Assembly (NCBI GenBank): GCA_030272155.1
Contig: CP126201.1
Span: 434,001 to 498,000 of the forward strand
DNA from: Tetradesmus obliquus
Taxonomy: Eukaryota > Chlorophyta > Chlorophyceae > Sphaeropleales > Scenedesmaceae
Direction of reading: 5' to 3'
Length of the DNA: 64,000 bases
Shown here: positions 9,001 to 64,000 of the stretch, in pieces
How positions within the stretch are numbered: the stretch's first letter is position 1
How the letters are laid out: each line of letters begins with the position of its first letter
Notes under the pieces: generated by a model
Databases searched by the model: none
What the model was told of the DNA's origin: nothing
Seen by the model: only the letters and a program-made list of their open reading frames with translations
Made by a program: the position numbers and the translations under genes

Positions 9001-11999
9001 ATGGGTGCCCGCGGTAGCAGCAGCGAGTCTGGCTTTGAGCAGGAGCATAGGGCAAAGGCCAAACGGAGAAGTGCAGCGCCTTTGCAGCCAGGCCTGCAAG
9101 TCATCGGTACCCTTCTCGCACTTCGTGTTGGCTATCGGCTCGCCAAGACAGCAGGTAGGGGTCCCGGCGGGGAGACAGCCCAGCAGGGCTCGGCCTGCAT
9201 AGAGCTGTTGCAACAGTTTGTTGAGAGCTGTCGCTTCTTGCCTTTGTCTATCTGCAGTTGGCAGGCTCTTTGCTGAGCCGAAGGTCACGCCAGTCTTTGA
9301 AGAGCAGCAGGACAGCTTCCATGCCGTGGAGGTGAGCTGCTTGGCTACAGTAGATGCTAGATGTGCGCATCTGGACAGCTGGAGGGGCCTAAGAATGCTT
9401 GCTCAGCAGGAGCAGTTTACAAGATAGTGACTTCCTCGCACTACGGCAGTATTAATGTCCATAATCCTTCCTGCATGCCTGCATTGTGCATCCCCAGCGC
9501 AGCAGGTCTTCCTGTGCTGCATGCATTCCTGTTTGCATGTGCAAGCTCCTGCTGTCCTCGCAGCTGCAGCCACACGTATTCCCTCTCCTGCAACCTCCAT
9601 CCAACAGTTCCACGCTATGCTTGTACTTGCTTCCTTGCGCAGCACGTGTCAGATGAAGCAGCAAGTGCAGGTGCAACTGCGCGCGAGCAGTGGGTGGTGT
9701 GCTCGTTGCCAGCGCCGGATGTGCCGGAGGGCTTCAAGTTGATGGCCTCAGAGCACCTGCCCATTAGCACCTACCACTTCTACGAGCAGTTCCTGTCAGT
9801 GGACGCGACCTGCTTGCAGGACCACCACCGCAGCACAGGGCAGTACAACTTCAGGAGCAGCAGGTGTGTAGAAGTGCACGCTGCGGCATGAGGCTTGCAG
9901 GCAGCAGCTGGACACACAAGTAGAAGCACTGAGCAGCTGTAATTGCCACATAGATGCTCTTGAGCAGTTGTTGATTATGTGCCAGCAGTGCGAATGCACG
10001 CGCCGCGCTTTGCATTTGCAGAGGCACAGCAATGCACCCACAGCAGCAATGCGCAGTGAGTGCCAGGGAATGCACAGCCCAGCAGTCTGGCAGCACTGTC
10101 GTAACCTATACAACCGCAAACTTGTCCTGCAAGGGAATACATGCTGCCCCTGCCTCCCTCCTGCAGGTGGAAGGGCCCCGAGGGCGCCGACTGCCACTTC
10201 TCGCGTCTGTTTGACTTCATGCAGCCCAAGAAGGGCATGTGCAGCGTCAACGCGCACTGCCTGCAGGAGCAGCGCTTCAGCGTGCACCCGGGCGGCGTGT
10301 TTGTGATGCAGACCGACATGCGCATGGAGCACATCCCCTACGCGGACTGCTTCAAGGTGCAGAGCTTCTGGAAGGTGCGCTGGGTGTACTGCAGGCCTGG
10401 CCTAGGGTTAACAGCTGCTGGTGATGCATGGATATGCTCTCTCCTGCAAGCAGCACCGCCCCTAGCCACCCTCCGTCTCTACTTTGTGCAGCAGCAGGTA
10501 CCCAGCAATGCTATTTACAGCACATAAACACCGTGTGTGCCAAACTCTGCTGCTGCTGCTGCTGCTGCTGCTGCTGTATGCAGGCCGAGCCCGACTCTAC
10601 TGGCATGGGCTGCAACGTGTCCATCCACGTGGCGGTGCCCTTCCTCAAGGGCTGCCTCATGCGCGGCATCATCGCCAAGACCAGCTTTGGGGACTGCAAG
10701 GCCTTCTTCAGCGACTTCCTGGCGAAGGTAGGTGCGGTCATTGTGGCATGTTTGTGATAGCTTGTACTGCTTGGTGGCTGGTGCTTGCTGCAGCTGTCGA
10801 TGGCAAGGCCTTCTTCAGCGACTTCCTGGCAAAGGTGGGCAGGCATTATCAGGTGTTGCATTGTGCGGGTTGCTGTGTGCTGGGGTATTGCGCGCTTGCG
10901 GTGGCCTCGTAGCATAGGGTTGGCTGTAGCCAGTGTATGTATGGCTGTGTGTTGCGTGTCCCTATGCAGCGACTGCAAGGCCTTGTTCAGCGACTTCCTG
11001 GCACAGGTGGGTGCGGTCGCTGTGGCATTTTTGTGCTGGGTTGTACTGCTTGGTGGCTGGTGCTTGCTGCAGCTGTCGACGGCAAGGACATCTTCAAGGA
11101 CTTCCTGGCACAAGTGGGTGAGCCTGCTTGCTTCTGCTGCTTGGATGTGTGGTGCTTGGCTCTTTGTATGGCCTTGCAGCACGGGGTCAGCTGCACCTCC
11201 TCAACAAGCCCGTGTGATGCATGGACCTGTGCAGCCCGGCTGACGCTGCGGCACATGCACTGCGTTTCACTGTGTAGGTGCAGAACAGCATCTCCACAGA
11301 GCTGCTGCCCCAGGCTGCTGCAGCAGCAGCCGCAGCGGAGCAGCTGCTGGGCGCGTCGCCTGGGCTGCCGGCAGCTGCAGGTGCAGCGGCAGGCATGCTG
11401 TCGCCGCGCGCGGGCATGCAGAGCCCCTTCGCCTCTGTGGACGCAGAGGTGTTTGTGTGCTCTCCACGGCATGCATCAGCAGCCAGCAGCCCTGCACGCC
11501 CTGGAATGCAGCAGCAGCACCACCGGCGCGGCGGCTCGCAGTCGCGGCAGCAGCAGGCGGCGGCAGCGGCGCTGGAGCGGCAGCTGAGCAGGGTGGTCAG
11601 CGCCAAGCCCAGCTTCGCGCAGCCCATTGCAGAGTTGCGGCTGGTGGGCAGGTGGGTGCCAGGGCAGTAGCTGCTGCGTGATACCTCAACTTTAATATCG
11701 TCAGCGCAGTCGTTGGGGTAAATGTGCAGTGCGACAATCTGCGGAACGAGTATCATGCTGCTGAGCTGTAGCACACTCTGTAGACGACTGTGCAGCAGGC
11801 ATCACATGTCTGCTGCTACAGTGTTTTCCTTCTTGCCTCCTTTTTATGCTGCTGCAGGGCGTCGCGCGCGCAGGAGGTCATCAGCACTGCGCAAACAATC
11901 CTGCTGCTGCTGGTGCTGCTGGTGCAGCTGCTCATGCTGTACGACAACTACGTGCTGCACCACAGGCTGGCGCCGCATGCCCAACACCACACATGCTGA
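9001..11999 (+). CDS. VASt-domain protein with C-terminal membrane anchor (probable sterol/lipid transfer protein)
   Basis: Seven exons join in one frame: 9001-9154, 9258-9331, 9643-9863, 10167-10374, 10584-10727, 11278-11651 and 11858-11999 (438 aa). Residues about 100-270 match the VASt (StAR-like) fold of GRAMD1/Lam and plant VAD1 proteins: DVPEGFKLM, then HLPISTYHFYEQFLS, WKGPEGADCHFSR, FVMQTDMRMEHIPYADCFKV, CNVSIHVAVPFLKG and FSDFLAKV. A low-complexity Ala/Gln/Ser linker follows, then a hydrophobic segment (about 404-418, TILLLLVLLVQLLMLY) near the C-terminus, suggesting tail anchoring, probably in the ER. Family members carry sterols between membranes at contact sites. No GRAM domain is seen; it may be absent or encoded upstream of 9001. 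The ATG at 9001 is the first in frame, but a longer 5' end is possible. Confidence 0.78.
10690..11115 (+). repeat. Tandem copies of the exon-5 end and donor inside intron 5 of the VASt gene
   Basis: The real exon end gcgacttcctggcgaag|gtaggt (10727) is followed by three look-alikes inside the intron: 10794-10834, 10970-11006 and 11073-11113. Each has a CAG before it and a GTGGG donor after it. Their lengths (41, 37 and 41 nt) break the frame if included singly, and joining 10727 directly to 11278 is in frame. Two ~140-bp blocks, 10693-10834 and 10970-11113, are copies of each other, so duplication happened at two scales. Confidence 0.8.

Positions 12000-64000: not shown

Follow-up and report, generated by a model that had tools for sequence, protein, structure and literature searches.

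In a 64,000-nucleotide stretch of the Tetradesmus obliquus genome (the window; bases 434001-498000 of contig 11), the ends of several predicted exons, together with their splice sites, appear again as additional copies inside the adjoining introns. This raises the question of whether such duplicated exon edges belong to a few genes or to the whole genome, and how they arise and stay recognisable. The analysis of a genome sample described below showed that exon-edge duplication is real and recurrent, although it is clustered and not as widespread as the window would lead one to expect. The copies are probably products of recurrent local tandem duplication with a unit of about 120 bp, combined with survivorship, and recombination with the exon perhaps preserves the similarity of their exon parts. 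The evidence throughout is genomic sequence, and the gene models are predicted.

Frequency of exon-edge copies in a genome sample

The genome analysed comprises 104.66 Mb in 17 contigs; the portion of the published T. obliquus genome description used here (PMC5966456) gives 108 Mb and 57% GC. Within the window, GC ranges from about 51 to 62% per 2 kb and CAG runs are abundant. Gene segments were placed by a whole-genome Pfam profile search, which yielded 56 multi-exon segments (labelled with L-numbers): 34 kinesin, 14 kinase, 6 adaptin-family and 2 tRNA-synthetase segments. The adaptin and kinase segments were the first 20 by list order, and the kinesins were all 34 multi-piece ones. The tRNA-synthetase segments were picked because copies were visible in the match list, and they were omitted from every frequency. 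Introns were called from profile continuity, reading frame and splice motifs. This gave 103 introns with a very clean splice consensus (CAG/GTGAG and YTGCAG/G, the slash marking the junction). Quality limits were satisfied by 85 of them, and 80 neutrally chosen introns from 37 genes (kinesin 58, adaptin 15, kinase 7) formed the sample.

Each edge query consisted of the last 40 exon and 10 intron bases, or the mirror image, and was compared with the remainder of its own intron. At a score of 40, copies were found for 8/80 donor edges and 6/80 acceptor edges, and 14/160 edges were also counted at a score of 50. With the introns of other genes as the target, 0/80 donor edges and 1/80 acceptor edges (1/160 together) reached 40 in any of 60 draws. 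In the control with segments taken 60-110 bases from the edge inside the exon, 1/141 had a copy (null 3/141). The first or last 50 intron bases gave 9/160 at a score of 40 against a null of 10; as intron ends do not exceed their null at this score, they were compared with the edges at a score of 50, where 2/160 matched. Intron middles gave 4/80 at a score of 50 against a null of 2. The excess of exon edges matching their own introns, for which the earlier note on this DNA had proposed a genome-wide check, was seen in the sample. The other-gene introns and the shuffles rule out chance or low complexity as the source.

Edge copies recur in adaptin-, kinesin- and tRNA-synthetase-family genes lying on different contigs. 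This recurrence in several genes makes it extremely improbable that we are looking at an assembly artefact or false haplotypic duplication, as does the fact that most copies differ by a few to about 25% and stand in regular arrays. In three segments, the tRNA-synthetase L057 and L058 and the kinesin L040, the duplication of edges can be read from the genome-wide Pfam match lists themselves, where profile segments occur more than once.

By self-BLAST, 10/80 introns were affected (95% interval 6-22%). They fell into 6/37 genes and were clustered by gene beyond chance (permutation p 0.005), and the other 70/80 introns had no copies. The earlier note had spoken of a window-wide process that is not a property of one gene. 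The second part holds, and the process even recurs elsewhere in the genome, but its distribution is clustered. The lengthening of introns that the note had proposed was supported: the nine introns with a score of at least 40 had a median length of 536 bp against 246 bp for the others (p 8e-6), and they made up 24% of the sampled intron bases. With 10/80 sampled introns carrying them, duplicated edges offer a route to longer introns; the tabulated part of PMC5966456 gives T. obliquus a mean intron of 462 bp, against 230-302 bp in the other four algae tabulated.

Unit size and conservation of the copies

When the repeats of the 80 introns and their surroundings were sorted into families, simple repeats being dropped, 14 families straddled an exon edge, 1 was intron-only and 0 were exon-only. 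Uniform placement over such intron lengths predicts about 55% straddling, against the observed 14/15 (p 0.0017). A direct diagonal scan of 260 kb (L003-L022 and window positions 1-60000) gave 80 families, and the same scan of block-shuffled sequence (one shuffle per segment) gave 0. The spacing had a peak at 80-159 bp, with 49/80 families (17 at 100-119 and 19 at 120-139), and a valley at 40-79 bp, with 4/80; another 9 families formed a minor group of their own at 20-39 bp. A count by BLAST placed 61/92 at 85-159 bp. BLAST may suppress small spacings close to the main diagonal; the explanation of the size peak as a detection limit was rejected, as both the valley and the peak persist in the direct diagonal scan. 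The full-length tandem families behaved alike (22/28 at 80-159 bp), and nearly all of them had a low coding score; the relation between a short conserved core and the coding score is confounded by repeat length.

The families were over-dispersed among 10-kb segments (index 3.2). Their number correlated with CAG density (rho 0.48, p 0.013); no such correlation was seen for GC or for the count of edge-like sites. An exon-edge-like site, by a criterion that recovers 35/44 known sites, was present in 43/66 arrays against 27.2 +- 4.1 at random places. In L005 1-10000, the surroundings of an adaptin-family gene, 12 repeat families were counted within 10 kb, and 8 of these had units of 124-142 bp; six kinase loci had 0 families in the same count.

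The identity of each copy to its true edge was profiled without gaps for 37 donor copies, those of the window among them, and for 18 acceptor copies; searching by the exon part favours the exon part in this profile. For donor copies, identity was 0.78 at -45 to -35, 0.87 at -25 to -15 and 0.84-0.92 at -15 to -3. It reached 0.95 in the last three exon bases, was 0.88 at the GT and 0.77 at +2 to +6, and dropped beyond +6 to 0.48, then 0.39, then 0.36. In acceptor copies, identity was 0.87-0.93 in the initial 30 bases of the exon, 0.97 at the AG and 0.53-0.79 upstream of it. In the Pfam set of 38 copies (20 donor-side and 18 acceptor-side), all 38 reached within 0-5 nt of the splice site and 31 reached it exactly, only introns having been searched. 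The intron flanks of 23/38 copies were homologous to the true flanks (z>3, local-alignment null), and these copies therefore began as tandem duplications. An origin as mobile introns (introners) was rejected for the two units searched genome-wide, that of L040 and that following the donor at 47406 of window gene A (A47406), since neither had a full-length match outside its own array. All four matches of the A47406 unit lay inside that array. For L040, the long matches were confined to its own array, and about 60 short ones elsewhere were mostly one stretch of about 45 nt.

Across 19 arrays, the median divergence was 0.047 in the exon part, while 0.375 of the intron part was unmatched. By our reckoning, exon constraint alone predicts a roughly two-fold difference, and the observed one exceeds this factor (p 4e-6). 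In 17 control families the best 45-nt window diverged by 0.111 and the rest by 0.273 (p 0.14); as these families were hand-picked among the 28 full-length tandem ones, a choice biased towards evenness, they are indicative only. Ordinary intronic minisatellite turnover, with random arrays that sometimes overlap an edge and an exon part that looks conserved since the exon cannot drift, would agree with several of these observations. Repeats cover 29% of the intron bases deeper than 100 nt (the copies themselves included), geometry alone puts about half of the units across an edge, exon constraint lowers the apparent exon-part divergence, and even the non-coding control families keep their best 45-nt window better than the rest. 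We nevertheless consider such turnover an unlikely explanation. Intron-only families are just 1/15 in the 80 introns, the exon-intron difference goes beyond the factor of two, and pairs of copies, neither of which is the exon, can show the same difference. Namely, in the copy-to-copy comparisons within L036 and L040, exon-part mismatches were 0/46 and 0/44, while the flanks had 39 matches and 14 mismatches, and 20 and 8, respectively.

The two halves of a copy may also have had different pasts. The A47406 copies at +124 and +384 shared their flank almost perfectly (47 matches, 1 mismatch) and differed at 7/41 positions (17%) of the exon part; the halves would therefore have separate histories. 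In the acceptor array of L040, apparently a young one, the exon and intron parts were about equally alike. We take the copies to have been born in tandem, after which their exon part would have been homogenised; short gene conversion involving the exon would be the simplest way.

Most of the finding is accounted for by tandem duplication together with survivorship. A process acting genome-wide would set copies of a local segment head to tail, preferably in units of about 80-160 bp. Because the median intron here is about 250 bp long, a unit of about 120 bp would often span a splice site. Duplications wholly within coding sequence would usually be purged, while those across a donor or an acceptor would be tolerated, because splicing at the outermost site leaves the protein unchanged. 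The surplus exon end, splice site and intron piece would then become intron. Repeated rounds would build up arrays, lengthen the introns and leave decoy splice sites in ladders, the outermost site presumably being the one used. The arrays may come from the repair or replication of staggered or slipped intermediates of about 120 bp, and a sharp mode at this size in the duplication spectrum would point to a specific intermediate. In older copies, gene conversion in short tracts or exchange with the constrained exon would preserve the similarity of the exon parts while the intron parts drift. Intron-side polarity would then follow from the survival of the protein and need no special mechanism; the earlier note is right that nearly all extra copies are found on the intron side, yet this comes close to being true by definition.

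Several points weigh against this account. The excess of edge-straddling families over geometry (p 0.0017) rests on 15 non-independent families from 6 genes, and exon-containing copies remain recognisable longer. Gene conversion is backed by one incongruent pair, which is suggestive only, and slippage of CAG runs in introns may inflate the divergence of the intron flanks. The copies of L003:1773 carry 11 nonsynonymous and 0 synonymous changes, and therefore not every copy has been overwritten. Clear flank homology (z>3) was not detected in 15/38 copies, for example L006:5951 and the donor side of L040:2480, and a looser null, with free end gaps and a wide spread, gave a z of 3 in just 1/19 nearest flanks. 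Insertion of the exon edge alone may thus be the origin of part of the copies. As a replacement for tandem duplication, templated insertion or RNA/cDNA-templated repair ending at the splice junction would also account for the sharp end of similarity there. It is very unlikely in view of the homologous flanks in 23/38 copies, the 0/38 exon-interior copies without a splice site within the at most 180 exon bases searched, and the common 80-159 bp spacing of the full-length tandem families with their low coding scores. It is possible, though we hold it doubtful, that the copies are actively kept exon-like up to the junction by exon-seeded gene conversion or RNA/cDNA-templated repair, so that arrays and splice-site ladders persist while the intron halves turn over.

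Splice signals and coding potential

In the Pfam set, GT was kept in 15/20 donor copies and AG in 17/18 acceptor copies, often with good splice scores. The donor signal was lost in some arrays (L003:2486, L057:204 and the window gene with a VASt domain). In the A47406 array, all six copies keep their donors, with scores of 6.3-7.5 against 7.4 for the true donor. Competing splice sites thus exist as sequence, and to this extent the ladders predicted in the earlier note are present. How the spliceosome would pass over a series of nearly identical donors or acceptors within a single intron becomes testable here. At such places exons may be miscalled by gene finders and by RNA aligners, as happened with our own gene finder; at A 50834 it called the copy an exon.

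If the copies were functional as alternative, poison or mutually exclusive exon pieces under selection, they would be conserved up to the junction, and their conservation does stop there, as in real exons; the strong donors of six out of six A47406 copies agree with this too. The second splice site gave a different picture. Among acceptor-side copies, a donor near the far end (score 3) was found in 0/18, random places giving 8%. An acceptor was present in 15/37 donor-side copies, only somewhat above the 25% at random places (scores overall p 0.008); the equivalent place in the true exon gave 12/37. Judging by these signals, some donor-side copies could be mini-exons.

The codon test, in which exon changes are inseparable from changes in old copies, gave 16 synonymous and 6 nonsynonymous changes shared by every copy of its array, a mainly synonymous set of the kind that changes in the true exon should produce. 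Arrays with a single copy had 25 synonymous changes, 12 nonsynonymous ones and 1 stop, and changes present in some copies only amounted to 59, 62 and 1, against neutral fractions of 0.28, 0.69 and 0.03. The synonymous excess could be taken as selection on functional copies, but it is also expected, and fits, if the copies budded from, or were overwritten by, an exon under constraint, some earlier and some later. Nonsynonymous changes are numerous, those of L003:1773 standing out, and argue against coding use of the copies; several copies also contain indels. We therefore regard functional copies as decidedly unlikely. As coding exons, the acceptor-side copies were rejected by the missing donors, and the case for the donor-side ones is weak. 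The suggestion that the arrays supply raw material for mutually exclusive exons was accordingly not upheld.

Duplicated edges in the window and in known systems

Self-BLAST found 84 local direct-repeat pairs in the window. Among the gene models, VASt (PF16016) and GH81 (PF03639/PF17652) were recovered by Pfam, while the helical paralogues A and B had no Pfam match and could be aligned with each other. The earlier note had counted about twenty duplicated boundaries in five genes. The phenomenon itself was found again at 8 clear edges (VASt 10731; A 47220, 47406, 48503 and 49816; B 63029 and 61008; the array at 38305), and about 6 further edges are ambiguous (A 50834, A 50198-50721, GH81 22362, GH81 22462-23102, GH81 24261/23670 and B 59394-59965), which gives at most about 14 and not twenty. 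The gene models are not firm for GH81 22462-23102 and 24261/23670, A 50198-50721 and B 59394-59965, and GH81 and the gene of the 2673-aa protein are tentative cases only. The features are listed in Table 1.

Table 1. Duplicated exon edges and related arrays in the window (window positions)
Feature	Position	Strand	Remarks
VASt-gene exon	10584..10731	+	Last ~36-38 nt and donor repeated downstream; gene model and Pfam VASt
VASt exon-end copies, intronic	10787..11016	+	2 copies at +107 and +279; GT kept in 1/2
GH81, partial copy of exon 22362-22479	22250..22428	-	Spacing 132 bp; ends 20 nt before predicted donor; tentative
GH81, array upstream of acceptor of exon 22362-22479	22462..23102	-	Unit ~143/210 bp; edge role from coordinates alone
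47 bp x 8.1 array region	38212..38870	+	Apparent exon end ...GCACAG/GTGAGG; one diverged copy 38776-38870
A, copy of acceptor edge of exon 47221-47406	46992..47220	+	Score 55
A, exon	47221..47406	+	True donor after 47406
A, six exon-end and donor copies, intronic	47407..48180	+	Ends 47530, 47655, 47790, 47903, 48045, 48174
A, exon 48357-48503 and two donor-edge copies ending 48622, 48711	48357..48717	+	
A, donor edge 49816 and one copy at +144	49768..49983	+	
A, array 50198-50721 and donor edge 50834 with copy ending 51127	50198..51162	+	Gene model ambiguous
B, 220-bp unit x 2.5, repeated exon-like segment (translation NKFGLLISMFARISDSQAATLARLMN)	59394..59965	-	Exon edges putative
B, exon 61199-61008 and donor-edge copies	60619..61199	-	Copy ends 60880 (GT kept), 60630 (GT lost)
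B, exon 63220-63029 and three donor-edge copies ending 62884, 62735, 62615	62611..63220	-	

Paralogues A and B are duplicated at the same exon end, A 47406 (47221-48180) and B 63029 (62611-63220). The exons with copies at A 50834 (50649-51162) and B 61008 (60619-61199) probably correspond again. The copies were about 80-96% identical to the exon of their own gene and about 77-80% identical to the other paralogue over roughly 50 bases. As most copies are closer to their own gene's exon, those of A and B would have either arisen independently or been homogenised. No copy was found for the acceptor of B exon 59362.

The copies of the 47 bp x 8.1 array (38264-38646; donor score 8.5 at 38305) are fully identical, and the array must therefore be recent or homogenised. 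Its reading as an exon end was made by eye, the host gene lying outside the gene models. Near the GH81 gene, a larger repeat at 23512-25126 (713-720 bp, 85-87%) contains a cysteine-rich exon (GLCTCYNTLNPPACYSPTIYHCEG) and is perhaps a whole-exon duplication. A 183-bp array with more than 4 copies of about 70-80% identity lies outside the modelled genes at 14662-16077. A weakly predicted gene occupies 43129-45354 on the minus strand; its end reads J-domain-like, with an HPDKN motif that we take to be characteristic.

Small tandem duplications are known in plants from patch-mediated repair. They also arise from staggered breaks through Pol alpha-primase/CST, in the part of that work considered here (PMC8355091), and share with our arrays the head-to-tail copying of a short local segment; the arrays described here differ in their narrow unit of about 120 bp, in having expanded repeatedly and in the maintained similarity of their exon parts. 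Intron gain by tandem duplication, the subject of Rogers 1989 and Hellsten 2011, is known to us through the relevant passages of PMC4974935. In the Rogers model, too, local tandem duplication supplies splice signals and the protein stays unchanged, but the unit found here lies across a splice site that was already there and makes the intron longer, and no new intron arises between two exon halves. The Rogers-type signature, an exonic AGGT duplication with a new intron in the exon, was not seen: 38/38 copies lay at existing splice sites, only introns having been searched. The same passages describe a potato RdRp gene with a duplicated intron-exon structure, the first intron of which has a further 83-bp tandem duplication; unlike this single case, the present duplications are frequent.

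Intronic minisatellites or VNTRs (variable number tandem repeats) resemble our arrays in forming tandem arrays inside introns, one of which (47 bp x 8.1) is perfectly identical, and in head-to-tail local copies unique to their locus (two units searched genome-wide). They differ in that our units are anchored on exon edges, splice site included, and that their exon and intron halves are conserved very unequally; divergence was uneven across the unit in the 19 arrays and even in the L040 acceptor array. Tandem or mutually exclusive exon duplication likewise places exon sequence and a splice site beside the original, but here usually one edge is copied and the second splice site is usually missing. 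Unlike introners, neither the A47406 nor the L040 unit, the two that were searched, recurs at full length outside its own array.

EASTR deals with similar sequence flanking an intron that confuses splice-aware alignment, tandem repeats being one source (PMC10632439). Its repeat-flanked splice junctions are like ours, although in the sections considered they are treated as a difficulty for alignment and annotation, in species other than this one, and no comparable density is described. Our literature search, which lay mostly outside the subscription journals, found no report of exon-edge arrays at such density. The preferred unit of about 120 bp and the conservation cliff at the splice junction are the parts deserving follow-up.

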